Assembly: GCA_026390635.1 (NCBI GenBank)
Contig: JAPLFO010000180.1
Location: 1 to 38,591 of the forward strand
Reading direction: 5' to 3'
DNA from: Ignavibacteriales bacterium
Lineage (GTDB): Bacteria > Bacteroidota > Ignavibacteria > UBA10030 > UBA8401
Length of the DNA: 38,591 bases
The translations under genes and the position numbers were made by a program. Each line of letters starts with the position of its first letter. Position 1 is the stretch's first letter. Below the pieces are notes generated by a model. It did no database searches. It was not told the DNA's origin and saw nothing but the letters and a program-made list of their open reading frames with translations. Shown here in pieces: positions 18,414 to 38,591 of the stretch.

Positions 18414-18530
18414 GCAATTACAGAATTGTATATGGTGGGAGTTCTTTTTCATCGTTACTCAGCATCATCACAAACTCCTCGCTCTCAATAGCTGCATATA
18501 GTGATTGCGTTCCTTAAGAAGGAGCGCGAG

Positions 18531-19440
18531 ATGTTCCTCTCCAAATCACCCTCCGGTATTTACTACCTATATTTCTTCGATGCTCGAGGTATCAGGCAGA
18601 AGGTATCAACACACGCCAAACTGAAAACCGATGCTCTGGCATTTTTGCATAGCTTCAAGCAGGAAAAGAAGATGGCAAGATCGCGCGTTTTGCTTTCATG
18701 CTTCAAGAAGGAACTCATATCTCATATTGAGGTCCAATACACCAAAGCGACTGTGAAGGTTTACACACATGCATTTGACACTTTGTTGGAAATTATTGGC
18801 GATGTGCCGCTCCATTCAGTTAGTATGAGAGATGTAGATCTTTACAAGTCGGAGCGGCTCAAGAAAGTCAAACCGATAACCGTAAATACCCGTCTCATCG
18901 CACTGAAAAGCGCCTTCAACTTTGCCATGCGGTGGAAATACATTGGCGAAAACCCATTCGCTCATGTTCGGTTCTGCTCTATCCCGCAGCAAACTACTAT
19001 CTTTTTTACGAGGGAGGATTTCCAGTAACTCATTAGCAAGATCAAAGAAGGTTGGCTGAAAGAAATTGTCATCTTTGCAACCTTAACCGGAATGCGGTTG
19101 AGTGAAATTACAAATCTGCGCTGGCGAGCCGTTGATTTGCAGCGAAAACTCATATCAGTGGAGAGTAGCGCGACATTCAAAACCAAACATGGGAAGAAAA
19201 GAAATATTCCGCTGAATGATGCAGTTGTATATCTGCTAGGACCGAAAGCTCAGCCGGAAGGGGCGAAGGGGACGGATGATTATGTATTTACGCTCAACAA
19301 CAATAAAATCCTCGACACGTGGCTTTCTCACAAATTCAAATATTATGTCTATGAATGCCGGTTTCAAGAAGATCGACTACTTGGGGGAATTATCGGCGGC
19401 GGGAAAATAAATGCCCGAACCTTGCGATTCAGGCATCTTT
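18531..19440 (+). pseudogene. Tyrosine recombinase (phage-type integrase), interrupted and 3'-truncated
   Basis: An AAGGAG site (18519-18524) precedes the ATG at 18531. The N-terminal part (to 19025) carries an AP2-like/SAM-like core-binding domain: SPSGIYYLYFFDARGIRQKVST, then VNTRLIALKSAFNFAMRW. A TAA at 19026-19028 interrupts the frame, but the catalytic domain continues in the same frame with LTGMRLSEITNLRW (first catalytic Arg) and RNIPLNDAV. The segment expected to carry HxxR and the tyrosine nucleophile is absent: after NARTLR the frame runs into tRNA-like DNA and ends at 19550. Two separate lesions (in-frame stop, lost C-terminus) make an active enzyme unlikely. Its position at the end of a small-gene cluster suggests an old integrative element. 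Confidence 0.85.
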
Positions 19441-19442
19441 AC

Positions 19443-19469
19443 GTTGGAACGGCGGGATTTGAACCCGTC
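19443..19469 (-). other. tRNA 3'-end-like sequence (possible att relic)
   Basis: On the minus strand the stretch reads gacgggttcaaatcccgcc followed by gttcca. This matches a T-arm with loop TTCAAAT and four of five stem pairs, then an acceptor-like 3' strand. No matching 5' acceptor, D-arm or anticodon arm is found upstream, so it is not a full tRNA gene. It lies exactly where the integrase frame stops being integrase-like. Tyrosine recombinases commonly use tRNA 3' ends as attachment sites, so it may be an attL/attR remnant. Confidence 0.4.
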
Positions 19470-19507
19470 TCGACATGCCGGGACGCTCCGCGCCATACCC
19501 AAGAAAT

Positions 19508-20824
19508 TCATTGCCAGGCTTCCGATCCTATTGCACGAAAAACCATGTAGCGATTCATCGAACATGAAAACAGAGCCTGAAGATGCTGCAAGTCAGCCTG
19601 CAGTAGTGCCGTCTGTGTATCAAGCAGATCGATGTTGCTGATAGTGCCGGTATCGTATCGCTTGCGGGCGATGGACAACGCTTCGCGCGCCTGAGTTACC
19701 TGAAGCTCTGTCGCTGCCAGCTTATCTTCTCCAGATCGAAGATCAGATACCGCTTGGCGCACTTCCTGGGCCGCCTGCAGCTTGGTGTCGGCCGACCGTG
19801 CCTGCACACCCCGCAACGACGCTTCGGTCTCCTCCCGGCGATAATCCGTCCTTCCGCCGTCATAGATCGGGACTTCAAGCTTTATCGCAGCGGCAATATT
19901 TCCCCGCAAGACGTCGAGATTGGGAAGATACCCGTTCTTCAATCCATAGCTGATTCCGGCATTCAATGTCGGACGGTCCGAGATCTCGGCCACGCGCACT
20001 TGCAGCCGGGATGCTTCCTCCTCTTTCAGGGCCGTAATAATTTCCGGCCGCTGATGATATGCGATCTGCACAAGCGAGTCGCCATCCAGCACCATATGCA
20101 TCCGTTCGAAATCCCCCTTGACACATATAAGATCGCCGTTCTCGCGTCCCATCAATCGTCCGATCTGGATTTGTGCTTTTCGCTCTGCATTCTGGAGATC
20201 AATGAGTTGGTTCTGTGCGGCTGCTGCTCGCACTTCGGTTGTGAGAACATCGAAGTCGGTTGCAGTACCGGCGGCGATGCGTTTTTTGGCGACATCGATG
20301 TGCTCCTGCAGCGTGCGGATTTGTTCATTCTGAACCGCAATGGCTGAGCGAAGATACAGCGCCGTATAAAAAAGCTGGATCGTTTGGTACGCCAGCGAAG
20401 TGCGTATCAATTCGATGCCCGACTTGGCAATCTCCGTGCGCGATCTATTTGCATCCGCTGATGCCGCATTTTTTCCGAAATCATAGACCAATTGACGGGC
20501 AGTGACGTGAACATCATAATTGTCCGACGGATACATTCGGAACGCCATCGATCCGAATTCTATTTCAACAATGGGCGCCAGTCTCGTATAACCCGCTTCG
20601 AGGCCGACTGTCGGATTCCAAGCGCTTTCCGTCTGCTTCGTACGGATGTCCGCGGCAATCATCTGTTCGGCAGCCTGCCGAAGAGCGGGATGCTTGCTCA
20701 GGACGACGTTCACCACTTGATTGAGTGAGAGCGAATCGCCATCCGGCTGACCGCCGAACAGAGTCGCACGAAACATCATCAGCATGCTGAAGTACAGGCA
20801 TTGTTGCATCACGCGCACTTTCAT
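19508..20824 (-). CDS. TolC-family outer-membrane efflux protein
   Basis: The start at 20824 is chosen because GAAGGAAG lies just upstream on the minus strand and the reading opens a signal peptide ending near LFGG. The mature protein has the duplicated helical layout of the outer membrane efflux family: SLNQVVNVVLSKHPALRQAAEQ, LVYDFGKN, then the second repeat LVQIAYHQRPEIITALKEEE and the conserved YDGGRTDYRREE turn. The C-terminal half contains ALSIARKRYDTGTISNIDLLDTQTALLQA, typical of TolC homologues. It should form the trimeric outer-membrane channel for the pump encoded just upstream (16-nt gap to emrB). At 438 aa it is of normal length. Confidence 0.93.
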   Translation of the reverse strand: MKVRVMQQCLYFSMLMMFRATLFGGQPDGDSLSLNQVVNVVLSKHPALRQAAEQMIAADIRTKQTESAWNPTVGLEAGYTRLAPIVEIEFGSMAFRMYPSDNYDVHVTARQLVYDFGKNAASADANRSRTEIAKSGIELIRTSLAYQTIQLFYTALYLRSAIAVQNEQIRTLQEHIDVAKKRIAAGTATDFDVLTTEVRAAAAQNQLIDLQNAERKAQIQIGRLMGRENGDLICVKGDFERMHMVLDGDSLVQIAYHQRPEIITALKEEEASRLQVRVAEISDRPTLNAGISYGLKNGYLPNLDVLRGNIAAAIKLEVPIYDGGRTDYRREETEASLRGVQARSADTKLQAAQEVRQAVSDLRSGEDKLAATELQVTQAREALSIARKRYDTGTISNIDLLDTQTALLQADLQHLQALFSCSMNRYMVFRAIGSEAWQ

Positions 20825-33741: not shown

Positions 33742-34020
33742 ATGGCCATAAAGAAACACACCGCAGAACAGATCATCGGCAAACCTCGAGAAGCCGATGT
33801 ATTGCAGTCGCAAGGGATGTCGATGGAGGAGATCCTGCGGCAGCTTTGCATCAGCGATGCGACCTATTACAAATGGCGCAAGGAATATGGCGGACTTCGT
33901 ATTGATCAAGCGAAGCGATTGAAGGAGCTGGAACAAGAAAATAATCGCTTGCGGAAGGTGGTAGCAGATCTAACGATCGACAATTCAATATTGAAGGAAG
34001 TTACACGGGGAAACTACTGA
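33742..34020 (+). CDS. IS3-family OrfA (helix-turn-helix protein)
   Basis: AAGGAGG precedes the ATG. The product has the HTH_Tnp_1 core (EILRQLCISDATYYKWRKEYGGL) and a leucine-zipper-like tail (RLKELEQENNRLRKVVADLTIDNSILKEV), standard for IS3 OrfA. The stop (34018-34020) is in the same frame as orfB. In most IS3 elements orfA and orfB overlap in different frames and are joined by a -1 frameshift; here that arrangement seems altered. Confidence 0.9.
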   Translation: MAIKKHTAEQIIGKPREADVLQSQGMSMEEILRQLCISDATYYKWRKEYGGLRIDQAKRLKELEQENNRLRKVVADLTIDNSILKEVTRGNY

Positions 34021-34071
34021 GCTCGACAGAGTGCGTCGAAGTCTGACGACCCGGTAAAGAAGCGCCGGGCA

Positions 34072-34890
34072 GTGAACGATGCCATGGAACAGCTTCATGT
34101 ATCAGAACATAAAGCGTGTGAGGTTTTGGAGCAACCAAGATCAACGCAGCGGCGAGAGTCCGTGATCAAGACAGATGAAGAACCGCTGCGAGAGCGGATT
34201 GTCTGGTTTGCCTGTGAGTATGGCCGCTATGGTTATCGCAGAGTTACGTGGTTGCTGGTGAATGAAGGATGGCGTGTGAATCATAAGCGGGTCGAGCGGA
34301 TATGGCGCCAGGAAGGCCTGAAAGTGCCTGCAAAACAGCCTAAACGCAGACGACTGTGGCTCAATGACGGATCGTGTATTCGCCTTCGGCCAACGCACAG
34401 AAATCACATCTGGAGTTATGATTTCGTTGCAAAGCGAACAAGCGACGGCAGAGCCATACGAATGCTGAACATCATCGATGAGTTCACACGAGAGTGTTTT
34501 GCTATTCGGGTAGACCGACATATCGAAGCTATTGATGTGATTGAAACACTGGCGGACCTGTTCATCGAGAGAGGAATCCCTGAGCACATCCGATCGGACA
34601 ATGGTCCTGAGTTCATCGCGGAGATCATTCATGCTTGGCTTCAGCGATTGCATGTGAAACCATTATTCATCGAACCGGGTAGTCCTTGGGAGAATGGTTA
34701 CATTGAATCTTTTAACGGAAAACTGAGAGACGAGTTGTTGAACGGAGAGATCTTTGATACGATCATTGAGGCGAGAGTTATCACAGAACGCTGGAGGAAA
34801 TACTACAACACTATCAGACCACACAGCTCGTTAGGCTATCGCCCACCAGCCCCCGAATCCTATTTTCCCTATCTGGTAGCCAATGTTTGA
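34072..34890 (+). CDS. IS3-family OrfB transposase (DDE)
   Basis: The integrase core is complete: Asp in IWSYDFVAK, Asp in IRSDNGPEF and Glu in ENGYIESFNGKLRDELLN, followed by RPHSSLGYRPPAPESY. The N-terminal HVSEHKACEVLEQPRSTQRR segment is typical of the IS407 group. The ATG at 34072 is only one option, because homologous residues (KKRRAVND) extend upstream in frame to just after the orfA stop, so readthrough or reinitiation may be used. All catalytic residues are present, so it may be active. Confidence 0.92.
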   Translation: MNDAMEQLHVSEHKACEVLEQPRSTQRRESVIKTDEEPLRERIVWFACEYGRYGYRRVTWLLVNEGWRVNHKRVERIWRQEGLKVPAKQPKRRRLWLNDGSCIRLRPTHRNHIWSYDFVAKRTSDGRAIRMLNIIDEFTRECFAIRVDRHIEAIDVIETLADLFIERGIPEHIRSDNGPEFIAEIIHAWLQRLHVKPLFIEPGSPWENGYIESFNGKLRDELLNGEIFDTIIEARVITERWRKYYNTIRPHSSLGYRPPAPESYFPYLVANV

Positions 34891-34940: not shown

Positions 34941-35068
34941 ATTTCAATTCAGTTGAGATTGAATAGTGCTTTCCGATTCTCTACGGCAAGCCTCCGCCAG
35001 ATACTCGTTGGCCTTGCCATCATCGCTCTTCTTGCATTCATCACATCGTTCAATGGCTCTAATGCTGC
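34941..35068 (+). pseudogene. 3' remnant of a second four-TM gene, cut by IS3
   Basis: The frame LRQILVGLAIIALLAFITSF resembles the last TM helix of the intact four-TM protein (35979-36350; LIVGVIFSALAFLVARAIL). Homology continues past the gene end into the next intercistronic element (L1; 35067-35115 versus 36343-36393). The upstream part is missing because the IS3 right end is at 34940, and the stop codon position has changed (CCAAA versus CTAAC). Read-through gives a frame that ends at 35141. This implies that a duplicate cassette was destroyed by the insertion. Confidence 0.4.
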
Positions 35069-35243
35069 GCCCAAATCACTTAAAGGAAATAGTCCCCCCA
35101 AAGAACGCGGGATCTGCGACAATAGCAGAGAGATCTCCTGATGCACGAAGGGTAATCATTGATTGACGGTATTGCAGGAGCGCCGATCTCCATTGTGGGA
35201 CTACCCCGCCACTTTTATTTTAGCTATATAGAAATCGTTAGGG
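35069..35243 (+). repeat. attC-like recombination site S1 (candidate)
   Basis: The left arm starts GCCCAAA (degenerate RYYYAAC box) and contains TAGTCCC (35090-35096); the right arm contains GGGACTA (35198-35204) and ends GTTAGGG (35237-35243; GTTRRRY-like). The arms show further nested complementarity (GATC-GCG elements, CAATA/TATTG). The right 48 bp (35195-35242) recur at 35912-35960. The overall layout, one long imperfect hairpin ending in GTTAGG directly before a short gene, is that of an integron attC site. It is 175 bp, longer than typical sites. Confidence 0.4.
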
Positions 35244-35275
35244 ACAACGCAAAAAACATAGGAGTTGATGCTGAA

Positions 35276-35839
35276 ATGAAATTATTAGTAATCATAGGTT
35301 TCTCATACTTATACGCATTCTTTGAAATATTTCTGAATATTCGACAAAGAAGAAAAGGCATCATGATCGCTTTGAATGATAAAGGTAGTTTATGGTTGTT
35401 ATATATTTCCATAACCATTGGATATATTTTGTCATTTTCGATCGGCGCAACATCAATCGGTAGGATATATCATTGGGATACTCTATTTGGTATTGGAGTT
35501 GTGTTGGTCATTGCAGGTATGATCATCAGAATACAATCAATATTAACGCTTAAGAACAGTTTTACATATTCGGTTGCAAAAGTTGAGGATCATAAATTGA
35601 TAGAAACGGGAATGTATAGATATATTAGACATCCAGGATATTTAGGGCAGCTTCTTATTTTTATTGGGATTTCGATCTCATTGTCAAATTGGCTATCAGT
35701 TATCTTTATGGTAATTCCAATTGCTATTGGGTACAATTACCGAGTAGCTGTTGAAGAACGGTTTATGGCTGAACAATTCGGACAAAAATATTTGAACTAC
35801 AAAAACAAGACAAAAAAAATAGTTCCAATGATTTACTAG
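35276..35839 (+). CDS. Isoprenylcysteine carboxyl methyltransferase-family membrane protein
   Basis: The start at 35276 (MKLLVIIGF) follows GGAG 10-12 nt upstream; the open frame extends to 35159 but crosses the S1 site. The protein has about five TM helices, and the C-terminal half carries the ICMT/PEMT signature: KVEDHKLIETGMYRYIRHPGYLGQLL, then VEERFMAEQFGQKYLNYKNKTKK. Bacterial members methylate lipids, isoprenoid-like or other small substrates using S-adenosylmethionine; the substrate here is unknown. The gene is A+T-rich and lies 33 nt after GTTAGGG, as expected for a gene cassette. Confidence 0.78.
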   Translation: MKLLVIIGFSYLYAFFEIFLNIRQRRKGIMIALNDKGSLWLLYISITIGYILSFSIGATSIGRIYHWDTLFGIGVVLVIAGMIIRIQSILTLKNSFTYSVAKVEDHKLIETGMYRYIRHPGYLGQLLIFIGISISLSNWLSVIFMVIPIAIGYNYRVAVEERFMAEQFGQKYLNYKNKTKKIVPMIY

Positions 35840-35911
35840 GATGTGTTGTGCCTGACCGACGGATCAAGTATTCGCGTGCTGCACGATCTATCGAAGGCGG
35901 TGAGAATGTGC

Positions 35912-35961
35912 GTGGGACTACCCCGCCGCTCTAATTTTTCGCAATATAGAAATCGTTAGGT
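35912..35961 (+). repeat. attC-like right arm (S2), repeat of 35195-35242
   Basis: GTGGGACTACCCCGCC is identical in both copies, then the sequence diverges (ctc/ctt runs) and converges again on ATAGAAATCGTTAGG. GTTAGGT (35955-35961) is a full GTTRRRY match. The four-TM gene starts 17 nt later with a GGAGG in between. The matching left arm expected after the methyltransferase stop codon (35839) is not seen; a weak IS3-orfB-like stretch (about 35849-35885) lies there instead. Confidence 0.5.
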
Positions 35962-35978
35962 GCCTTGGAGGAAAACGC

Positions 35979-36350
35979 ATGAAAATACGCTCAACTGTTC
36001 GGCGGATCATCCTGACAAGTACGATATTTCTACTCCTTGTTCTGGCTTGGTTTTCGATCTCGGGAGGCCTCAACCAAATTCCTCGATCCCAGACAATTGG
36101 CCAAGTAGTGGAGACCATTGTTCAGATTACGTGCGGGCTTTTGAGCTTGCTGACTGCGGTTACTTGCTTCTACTGGCAGAAGTTGCATCGTCCAGTCCGC
36201 CTCGCTTGGCTTATCTCGCTGATAATGACAGCCGGGATATCTTCAGTTGTGTGGGGACCTCCGATGCTGATTGTGGGAGTGATCTTTTCCGCATTAGCCT
36301 TTCTTGTGGCGCGAGCAATCCTCTGGTTATTGCGGGTTGGCGGCGCCTAA
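35979..36350 (+). CDS. Four-TM small membrane protein, 123 aa (cassette-like)
   Basis: GGAGG lies 7 nt upstream of the ATG. The protein has four hydrophobic segments (~10-27, 40-62, 72-90, 95-118) with short loops, and no known domain. The stop TAA (36348-36350) is embedded in GCCTAAC, the RYYYAAC box expected at the start of an attC site. The gene is also flanked by an inverted repeat (GTTAGGTGCC before, GGCGCCTAAC after, one mismatch). Both features are typical of integron gene cassettes. A decayed relative lies at 34941-35068. The function is unknown. Confidence 0.65.
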   Translation: MKIRSTVRRIILTSTIFLLLVLAWFSISGGLNQIPRSQTIGQVVETIVQITCGLLSLLTAVTCFYWQKLHRPVRLAWLISLIMTAGISSVVWGPPMLIVGVIFSALAFLVARAILWLLRVGGA

Positions 36351-36393
36351 CAACTTAAGAAGGGAAAGAGTCCCCGCAAAGAACACGGGATCT
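36343..36393 (+). repeat. attC-like left arm (S3), repeat of 35067-35115
   Basis: GCGCCTAACAACTTAAG, then GGAAAGAGTCCCCGCAAAG and GGGATCT, align with GCGCCCAAATCACTTAA, GGAAATAGTCCCCCCAAAG and GGGATCT in S1. The right arm ending GTTRRRY is not found downstream, so the site seems truncated. The same bases can also be read as protein in frame with the preceding gene (36351-36548). Confidence 0.45.
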
Positions 36394-36548
36394 ACTTTCA
36401 ATCGCACTCGGATGCAGAGTCGAATGCAAGGCTGGTACTCAATCGTATGGGCGATCCGAAGAATGAAAAAGTAGGGCTGAAGTCGGCGAAAGCAGGAGTC
36501 AAGAGCGGGGAGCTCGTTGTTGGCACGTGGTATTCCGTGGTGGTGTGA
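36351..36548 (+). pseudogene. Possible 3' fragment of an unknown gene
   Basis: In frame after the four-TM stop, 65 codons without a stop give a protein-like sequence (KEHGIYFQSHSDAESNARL, then NRMGDPKNEKVGLKSAKAG and GELVVGTWYSVVV). No start or ribosome-binding site is visible. It may be the tail of a gene whose front was lost in a cassette rearrangement, or a chance frame. No family is recognised. Confidence 0.25.
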
Positions 36549-36697
36549 TTGTGAAAAAAATGGAGCATAGAGAGATCGGTCGCATAATTGCTTCTGTTCT
36601 CAATTCGGCCTACATTGACGCACATGGTAAAAGGGTGGTAAGGCGCTGTTGGCCTAAAGGTGGTGGACGATGCTTAACTGTCCTACGAAAAATGATA

Positions 36698-36740
36698 CCC
36701 TCATTGTCACGTAAGTGGCGGTGGGGGTTTTTATGTTTTT
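36698..36740 (+). terminator. Strong intrinsic terminator
   Basis: A 13-bp stem (36698-36710 with 36715-36727, four G-U pairs) closes on a GTAA tetraloop and is followed by tttttatgttttt. It ends the transcript of the preceding cassette-like genes and insulates the DUF4177 gene. The stretch 36549-36813 otherwise holds no supportable gene. Confidence 0.82.
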
Positions 36741-36813
36741 AAGGGTTGAAATATAAGAGTGTGCTGCAGATCTGGACAAACAACTTCCCATCCACTAATC
36801 AAACGAGGGCAAG

Positions 36814-37008
36814 ATGAAAGAATATAAGATTCTCACCCAAAAGGATAGATTTTTTGCAGGCAAGTTTGACCCAGAAAAATTGGAATCTGCAATAAATTCG
36901 TATGCAACTGAAGGCTGGGAAGTAAAGGCCGCAACGACAGCCAATATTCCCTCTTTCACCGGAGCTCGTGAAGAGATGATTATTGTCCTCGAGAGAGATA
37001 AAAAATAG
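36814..37008 (+). CDS. DUF4177 small protein, 64 aa
   Basis: An AGGGCAAG element precedes the ATG. The sequence has the DUF4177 pattern: MKEYKILTQ at the N-terminus, then LESAINSYATEGWEVKAAT (consensus LN.lg.eGWE) and EEMIIVLERDKK at the end. These are small alpha/beta proteins of unknown function, common in genomic islands. The gene ends in an A6 run (AAAAAATAG), and the following frame overlaps it by 26 nt, so a frameshifted fusion with the next ORF is possible. Confidence 0.75.
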   Translation: MKEYKILTQKDRFFAGKFDPEKLESAINSYATEGWEVKAATTANIPSFTGAREEMIIVLERDKK

Positions 37009-37252
37009 TGGAAATCCGGAATGGTCTAAGAGGGACGGTCTTGCGAGACGTATTCTTCACCGAAGAATCATTTATTGGCGCAGCCACGATGAAGAGTTTG
37101 CGTGTGGAAATATCAAGGCAAAATTCCAATCTAATGGAGGTGAAAGAAAGCTTGCGATGGAAGCTAAGGCGATAGGAGCAAATGCGGTAGTGAATTTTCG
37201 ATATGGTCAACAAGCACATAAGCGCTGGGAACTTATCTTCTCCTTCAAATAG
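36983..37252 (+). CDS. YbjQ/heavy-metal-binding-like small protein, possibly a frameshifted extension
   Basis: The recognisable part is the C-terminal half: ERKLAMEAKAIGANAVVNFRYGQ, the A..lGANAVv.. pattern of YbjQ/DUF74-like and related small domains. The only frame starts are a TTG at 36983, inside the preceding gene, or an ATG at 37156 that would cut into the domain, so the start is uncertain. A +1 shift at the A6 run of the DUF4177 gene would fuse the two. The gene may be partly decayed. Confidence 0.45.
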   Translation: MSSREIKNSGNPEWSKRDGLARRILHRRIIYWRSHDEEFACGNIKAKFQSNGGERKLAMEAKAIGANAVVNFRYGQQAHKRWELIFSFK

Positions 37253-37373
37253 GATACGGAATCTTGGCACGGCGAAGGAGATGCTGTCAAGATGTGAATA
37301 ATGCATGTTACAAACGAAGCCGCTGGCGGACAACCAGATTGTGTAATATTTACATGTGCATTGACACCGCGCC

Positions 37374-37427
37374 GTCCCAACGGGATCTTCGACCCGAAGG
37401 GTCTTCGATCCGGAGGATCCGTTGGAC
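37374..37427. repeat. Tandem hairpin element with GTTGGAC end (attC-like site S4 or REP)
   Basis: Two adjacent 16-bp units, TTCGACCCGAAGGGTC and TTCGATCCGGAGGATC, are each hairpins (GACCC/GGGTC and GATCC/GGATC); most differences between them are compensatory. They sit between CCCAAC (left) and GTTGGAC (37421-37427, a GTTRRRY match), which pair with each other. The GAF-protein start codon lies 29 nt after this. Either a compact attC site or a REP-type palindrome. Confidence 0.5.
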
Positions 37428-37456
37428 AGGTTAAGTCAAATCGTTGGGAGCGAAGA

Positions 37457-38155
37457 ATGATAAACGATAAAATCGAGATTGTTTTGCCAGAGAATATTAT
37501 GGAAAACTGGCAGGAACTCCTTAACATCCTCGCTCACGTTGCGAACATTCCTGCCGCATTGATTATGAGATTGCGCGATGCTGATATTGAAGTGTTTGTT
37601 TCCAGTCAGAGTGAGGGAACTCCTTACCATCCAGGTGACAGTGCGCAGTTCCAAGGGTCGGGACTGTATTGTGAAACCGTCATTAGAACGCAGGAGAAAC
37701 TTCTTGTGCCCGATGCTCTGGCGGACGACCACTGGAAAAATAACCCAGACATAAAGCTGAACATGATTTCCTATTTGGGATTTCCCCTTCTGTTGCCAAG
37801 TAAACAGCCGTTCGGCACTATTTGTGTTCTTGACAACAAGAGAAATGAATATTCGAAAACACTTGAAAATCTCATGCTAAATTTCAAGAGATTGATAGAG
37901 ACACATCTTGAAATAATTTATGTGAATGCAGTGCTTGGCGAAAAAAACAAACGATTAACAGACTATTTGATGGAGCTTCAAGCTCTACGAGGGATCGTCC
38001 CAATTTGCTCAAACTGCAAAAGCATCAGAGACAATGAAGATAGTTGGCATCCCATTGAGCATTATCTTCTTCGACACCCTCAAGCTGATTTCAGTCACGG
38101 CATTTGCCCTGCGTGCATTAAAAAGCTGTACCCGGAGTATGAAAAACGCTCCTAG
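37457..38155 (+). CDS. GAF-domain protein with C-terminal CxxC...CxxC metal-site tail
   Basis: The ATG at 37457 follows GGGAGCGAAGA; an in-frame ATG at 37301 would translate the S4 hairpin and is rejected. Residues ~10-165 form a GAF sensory domain (ENWQELLNILAHVANIPAALIMR, then GSGLYCETVIRTQEKLLVPDA and SYLGFPLLLPSKQPFGTICVLD). A coiled coil (~166-190) leads to the C-terminal module PICSNCKSIRDNEDSWHPIE...FSHGICPACIKKLYPE, a zinc-site-like tail (CSxCKxIRD, SHGICPxC) usually found at the end of signalling kinases and cyclases. No kinase or GGDEF output domain is present, so this may be a stand-alone sensor or adaptor. Confidence 0.85.
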   Translation: MINDKIEIVLPENIMENWQELLNILAHVANIPAALIMRLRDADIEVFVSSQSEGTPYHPGDSAQFQGSGLYCETVIRTQEKLLVPDALADDHWKNNPDIKLNMISYLGFPLLLPSKQPFGTICVLDNKRNEYSKTLENLMLNFKRLIETHLEIIYVNAVLGEKNKRLTDYLMELQALRGIVPICSNCKSIRDNEDSWHPIEHYLLRHPQADFSHGICPACIKKLYPEYEKRS

Positions 38156-38173
38156 AAACTTGGTCAAAAGGCA

Positions 38174-38242
38174 TTGCCACAAAGACACGAAGACACAAAC
38201 TTGGATTTTTCAATCAGCTTTTTTCCTTTTTCTTTGTGGCAA
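38174..38242. repeat. Inverted-repeat element with CACAAAGACAC core
   Basis: ttgccacaaaga (38174-38185) and its exact complement (38231-38242) enclose 45 nt that start with an 8-10-base repeating acacgaagacac pattern. It follows the GAF gene directly. The design resembles short dispersed palindromic elements. A diverged relative of the repeat may underlie the start of the Amidase_3 gene (10930-10957). Confidence 0.55.
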
Positions 38243-38276
38243 ATAATAGGGTTTTCGTCCAAGTCTCTAGCAACTG

Positions 38277-38339
38277 CATCAACTCGGTCTGACAATTCCG
38301 CTGTGCTCCATTGCCAGCCGGCTATGCAGAGCGTTGGGC
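38277..38339 (+). repeat. attC-like recombination site S5 (candidate)
   Basis: Nested helices pair CAAC (38280-38283) with GTTG (38333-38336), TCTG (38288-38291) with CAGA (38327-38330) and GCTG (38300-38303) with CAGC (38315-38318), with unpaired spacers between. It ends in GTTGGGC (38333-38339), an exact GTTRRRY box. At 63 nt it is within the normal attC size range, and the next gene starts 20 nt later. Confidence 0.5.
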
Positions 38340-38359
38340 ATTTAATTGAAAGGGTGAAG

Positions 38360-38591
38360 ATGGATAGTGAAAGAAATCGCGTTTGTCCTGTCGAGTATGC
38401 CAATTCGCTCGATAGCAAAATTAGAAAGTGGTTACAAAATCCCAAAAAGATACTGGCCCCGTATGTTCAAGAGGGAATGACAGTCCTCGATATTGGATGT
38501 GGCCCCGGGTTCTTTTCCATCGAAATGGCAAAGATGGTTGGAAAGACCGGGAAGGTCATATCGGCTGATCTACAGGAAGGAATGCTCCAGA
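38360..38591 (+). CDS. SAM-dependent methyltransferase (3' end outside window)
   Basis: The ATG at 38360 is preceded by GAAAGGG. The visible 77 codons include a class I methyltransferase motif I (MTVLDIGCGPGFFSIEMA) and the motif-II acidic position (GKVISADLQEGML), as in UbiE/Methyltransf_11/25-type enzymes. The frame is open at the window end. The substrate cannot be judged. The gene follows the S5 attC-like site directly. Confidence 0.88.
   Translation, partial: MDSERNRVCPVEYANSLDSKIRKWLQNPKKILAPYVQEGMTVLDIGCGPGFFSIEMAKMVGKTGKVISADLQEGMLQ

Follow-up and report, generated by a model that had tools for sequence, protein, structure and literature searches.

What kind of genetic system is formed by the short genes that close this stretch of an Ignavibacteriales genome? 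The window, by which we mean the whole analysed stretch of 38,591 nt, is C196:1-38591; contig C196 runs on to 43,353, and the genome is a 3.98-Mb draft of 202 contigs. Between 35.2 and 38.9 kb of C196, the genes are short, all on the + strand, and carry integron recombination boxes at their borders. An earlier note on this DNA had raised the possibility of an integron-type gene-cassette array without an integrase. With corrections, the array was borne out by the complementarity of cassette starts and ends, a match to an attC model at one site (S4), and an intact integron integrase (IntI) and canonical attCs in the genome. We judge, with a probability of roughly 0.86, that the last 3.6 kb of the window belongs to a sedentary chromosomal integron and has decayed.

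Upstream of the array, an IS3-family element adjoins the first site, S1. Its transposase (33742-34890, +) is spread over two ORFs, 33742-34020 and 34072-34890, with Pfam matches to HTH_Tnp_1 and to rve, rve_3 and HTH_21; terminal inverted repeats of this element were looked for and none was resolved. The first cassette holds an ICMT/PEMT-like methyltransferase gene (35276-35839, +; PF04191 1.7e-17, PF04140 1.2e-16) and the second an orphan gene for a four-TM protein (35979-36350, +), which has no Pfam match and no homologue among the 97 other genomes of the order. A piece of another cassette follows (36396-36739, +; 81% identical to C83:5057-5369 and 87% to C145:9633-9744), then a DUF4177 gene (36814-37008, +; PF13783 9e-15), for which the start of a cassette was looked for and not found. 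The last two cassettes encode a GAF-domain protein (37457-38155, +; PF13185 2.5e-9, PF01590 2.7e-8) and a methyltransferase (38360-38591, +, continuing to C196:38930; PF13847 1.1e-8). The same-strand genes of unrelated type that had been described are thus all present, their Pfam families differing from one to the next, and the arrangement of one short same-strand gene between recombination boxes is that of integron gene cassettes.

Several other features of this region can be recorded here. Residues 165-231 of the GAF protein (window 37950-38150) form a C-terminal Cys-rich motif of ~65 aa (ICSNCKSIRD...FSHGICPAC), which numerous further signalling-type proteins also carry, in 76 of the 98 genomes of the order; matches in a search with the GAF protein are mostly to this widespread motif. 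A repeat-like element at 38165-38270, between the GAF gene and site S5, reads CACAAAGACACGAAGACAC ... TTTGTGGCAAA with ACTTGG/CCAAGT at its flanks. A relaxed Rfam match to a microRNA family at this place lies far under threshold; the Rfam scan gave nothing at the gathering threshold and chance matches only when relaxed. Fragments of a single small-ORF sequence (MNPPTTYTILSR... on C83) are repeated in the genome, each beside different genes (C83:4934-5369, C196:36396-36739, C196:39218-39282, C106:3519-3583 and C145:9633-9744). C196 also carries two related phage-type tyrosine recombinases, at C196:39695-40723 and at window 18501-19550, the second of which is interrupted. Ahead of the recombinase beyond the array lies a tRNA-like stretch, with no ARAGORN call, which is found again as the terminus of contig C83 (98.6% over 69 bp). 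Finally, T9SS-type C-terminal tails were seen by eye in window proteins, with a TIGR04183 match in the relative G031; such tails would place the genome on the Bacteroidota/Ignavibacteria side.

The sites between the cassettes are of uneven quality. S1 (35067-35243, +) is a complete copy of a sequence of ~180 bp, here called S1-type, with an intact right box (GTTAGGG, 35237-35243) and a degenerate left box (CCCAAAT); it is 88% identical to C83:7659-7838, with the boundary at G^TT. S2 (35912-35961, +) has the S1-type right arm only, ending in GTTAGGT (35955-35961), so that the GTTAGG ends reported for both sites hold. It is a hybrid, this right half being joined to a different left half, and its arm is 88-92% identical to those at S1, C83 and C51 (88% against S1). 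S3 (36346-36395, +) is an S1-type left arm only, 88% identical to C83:7663-7712; it opens with GCCTAAC, overlapping the four-TM stop codon (36350) as had been described. S3 is broken, truncated by the 344-bp piece of the other cassette into which it continues and which is also found on C83 and C145. S4 (37375-37449, +) is a probable attC with R'' TCCCAAC and R' GTTGGGA, parts of which (46 and 57 bp, 86-89% identical) are present twice on C51. The GTTGGAC at 37425 that had been taken for its end is an inner hairpin arm, and the true right box is GTTGGGA at 37443-37449. S5 (38277-38339, +) does end in GTTGGGC (38333-38339), which opens the methyltransferase cassette. By eye, the attC of that cassette has a left arm and L' box, with GTATTGA in place of the expected GTTRRRY.

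Gene starts had been placed 17-33 nt after the boxes. The ATG lies 32 nt from the box at S1, 17 nt at S2 and 20 nt at S5, but 7 nt at S4 once the true box is used. Of the sites described as foldable, S4 alone stands out, its bottom-strand fold having a z of -2.24 (6 of 200 shuffles); the fold of S1 is less stable than those of its shuffled versions (z +1.05), and that of S5 is at chance (z -0.25). That the sites are not all complete is clear: S2 and S3 are half-sites, and most sites are half or degenerate.

The covariance check recommended in the earlier note was made with a model, R1, built from 14 attCs, 11 of them from intI-adjacent arrays in relatives and three from this genome (C52, C83:6893 and C145:2366), with none from the window. 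With filters off, the top match in the window was S4 (14.2 bits, E 0.047), and there was no match at S1, S2, S3 or S5. As a control, R1 found all three attCs of the class 2 array of plasmid R721 (aadA1 45.9, sat2 31.4 and dfrA1 11.7 bits). The score of S4 therefore falls within the range of genuine attCs, at its weak end, and exceeds that of the dfrA1 attC. In the rest of the genome, R1 matched C52, C83:3751, C145:2366, C145:9102, C51:1199, C51:120 and C42:1531, of which C52 and C145:2366 were training members; C51, C83 and C145 also carry copies of the S2 arm. A home-made box-plus-stem scan for attCs was dropped, real and shuffled sequence not being separated by it.

A second line of evidence comes from the cassettes themselves. 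Each gene of the array would once have been a mobile cassette, a circle with one gene and one attC, which IntI would put between the G and the TT of GTTRRRY; the inserted cassette would begin with TTRRRY and have the left box of its attC (RYYYAAC) near the stop codon of its gene. Start and end of the same cassette would be complementary because the two pair together only in the excised circle. Such complementarity is a criterion for accepting cassettes as genuine (PMC4909258), and the R721 cassettes show it as well (sat2 12/12, aadA1 10/12). For every cassette start, the best 12-base reverse-complement match was located within the next 3.35 kb. In 8 of the 10 cassettes with an ORF in this genome, it fell within -7 to +56 nt relative to the first stop codon (p 1e-10), and in most cases an attC-like spacer, for example AATTCGCTCAACCTG, came next.

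Three of the C196 cassettes behave in this way. The ICMT cassette ends in GTTGTGCCTGAC (35845-35856, +), the left box of S2, which is complementary at 10/12 positions to its start, GTTAGGGACAAC. The four-TM cassette ends in GCGGCGCCTAAC (36340-36351, +), overlapping the stop codon and 9/10 complementary to its start GTTAGGTGCC, a pairing also listed as GTTAGGTGCC / GGCGCCTAAC. The end of the methyltransferase cassette, AAAATGCCTAAC, lies past the window (C196:38920-38931) and is 10/12 complementary to the start GTTGGGCATTTA. Complementarity of R' and R'' within one cassette was thus found for these three and not for the GAF cassette, whose end complementarity is unclear and degenerate, only CGCTCC being left at the stop. 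The pairing is cassette-specific: in the five bases outside the box, 39/45 matched over nine cassettes of the genome, against 1.42/5 in swapped pairs (permutation p ~1e-5). For the three C196 cassettes, 12/15 extension bases matched, equalled by 1 of 504 pairings, and the match lay at the stop codon in 3 of 4 (p 1.8e-4), values that are somewhat optimistic, as the swap and stop-codon tests were devised after the matches had been seen by eye. These tests replaced an earlier 14-base shuffle test that was too blunt for single C196 sites (p 0.06 for S1, 0.98 for S2 and 0.70 for S5; significant for C83, C145 and C51).

The claim that the array lacks an integrase is right for this contig and wrong for the genome. 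The search for an intI-type recombinase, which the earlier note had called for, found an intact IntI without stops at C52:23889-24833, the one integrase in the genome above the TIGR02249 cut-off (473 bits against 265), and thus the IntI with its specific domain that marks a complete integron. The protein has 330 aa and carries the IntI-specific stretch between the catalytic boxes, with HxxR and Y motifs. About 150 nt past its stop stands GTTAGTTAGCATG, then a cassette with the end CATGCTAAC and an attC of ~125 bp that folds into a textbook hairpin. The contig stops 700 bp beyond this gene. The cassette next to intI (C52:24836-25534), the first of the array, has no obvious ORF and recurs as a second copy at the contig end, a repeat that probably broke the assembly there. 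The C52 intI is oriented toward its array, in the cassette direction, whereas in the relatives G031, G025, G004 and G036 the layout is the usual divergent one.

The only unusual part of the array is the ~180-bp S1-type site. In this genome a further complete copy lies at C83:7658-7845 and an almost complete one at C145:1303-1445, with partial copies on C51, C106 and C100 as well as at S2 (C196:35912) and S3 (C196:36346); the five loci outside the C196 array lie beside different genes. With relatives in G031, G060, G055 and G071, it occurs in 5 of the 98 genomes of the order, this one included. Copies of the S2 arm therefore do not come from a local tandem duplication. The earlier note had named two results that would count against it, no attC match at any site and an arm confined to such a duplication; neither was observed. 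S1-type sites adjoin or sit between same-strand R1 matches on C83 and on G031 contigs C8 and C16. Adjacent to these sites, we observed that a CRISPR array (C145 1-1280; 30-nt repeat GATTCAGTCGAACCAGAGTGGAATTGAAAT) abuts the S1-type site on C145, where the neighbouring cassette has perfect end complementarity (14/14). In G031 C8:70000-88000, the long genes between attC matches encode T9SS-secreted proteins (PorU/C25-like, glycosylhydrolase), beside an ICMT-like protein 28% identical to that of the window; these cassettes would be unusually large, if they are single ones.

The simplest account of S1-type sites is that they are attCs with one box lost: most copies have a degenerate left box, and most have an intact right box. 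In the minimum-energy fold the boxes are unpaired, unlike those of attC. We consider it doubtful, though worth entertaining, that they are instead a divergent cassette recombination site of ~180 bp without the canonical R/L hairpin and still served by the integrase of this clade; this judgement covers both an attC with another fold and a landing site needing the right box only.

The missing hairpin and the conservation of the 180-bp sequence would equally suit a short non-autonomous mobile element, or an intergenic repeat, with attCs as its insertion targets, the cassettes being real and S1, S2 and S3 its marks; copies on C100 and C106, where no attC match was found, fit this as well. We regard it as unlikely, since the conserved block stops exactly at G^TT, the junction between site and cassette, and gives way to cassette-specific sequence: the C145 site ends ...GAAATCG and is followed by TTAGCTGGTAATT, which is exactly complementary to the end of the cassette there. 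Moreover, the block in S3 opens with the left box whose partner is the start of its own cassette, and the copy on G031 C16 runs from GCCTAAC to GTTAGCG. It is quite improbable that the S1-type sequence serves as an attI-like landing site whose right box suffices, with cassettes inserted beside dispersed copies. The state of the two boxes would suit this, as would the cassettes with different attCs of their own that come next at C83 and C145, but by eye there is no similarity to the intI-proximal region of C52, S3 has the S1-type left arm as a cassette end, and copies occupy attC positions in mid-array. An ordinary run of small genes, in which an intergenic repeat had been duplicated locally and the GTTRRRY-like boxes arose by chance, might be favoured by the failure of a generic box-and-stem scan to separate the region from shuffled sequence, but it is hardly credible, being contradicted by the cassette-specific complementarity, the model matches and the repeats on other contigs and genomes.

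In favour of the decayed integron are the boxes and the complementarity specific to each cassette, a single weak match to the attC model, an intact intI, canonical attCs at other places in the genome and arms repeated beside other genes. Against it stand the lack of a model match at S1, S2, S3 and S5, the weak match at S4 (E 0.05), the folds of S1 and S5, no better than shuffles, and the unclear GAF end and DUF4177 start. The IS3 element at S1, the hybrid S2, the run-on of S3 and the GTATTGA box mark the array as decayed. Because S1 is without an intact left box, S2 is a hybrid and S3 is broken, the array is presumably mostly immobile now. The C52 integrase would act, or have acted, in trans on it, and the S1-type sites appear to be former attCs that this integrase served.

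As to class, the C196 array most resembles sedentary chromosomal integrons; complete integrons have been reported in Chlorobi and Ignavibacteriae (PMC9024848). It shares with such integrons an IntI, canonical attCs, start/end complementarity and short genes of unrelated type arrayed on one strand, but differs in that the part in the window either lies far away from intI or occupies a different contig, and has a single weak attC, several half-sites and S1-type sites without the canonical fold. The CALIN arrangement that had been suggested, an attC cluster without an integron-integrase (IntegronFinder, PMC9024848), fits insofar as the window cassettes have no intI on their contig; however, the window has one R1 match, under the threshold of at least two covariance-model attCs, and the genome has an intI. 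The split between intI and array may be an assembly effect, as PMC9024848 notes for drafts, and C196, C52 and the other array contigs may be one array split by repeats. Treponema has a reverse integron (PMC3607928, PMC4909258) in which intI faces the array (PMC3607928), as on C52, unlike the divergent layout of the relatives in this clade. The R721 class 2 array (dfrA1-sat2-aadA1) resembles the C196 array in complementarity and range of attC scores, but is mobile, with short attCs and intact boxes.

Start/end complementarity can recover cassettes that attC models miss. The finding points to a chromosomal integron whose arrays are scattered and in part decayed, in a clade where the attC model overlooks most of the sites; if the S1-type sites are active, the requirement for a folded R/L hairpin would need qualifying.
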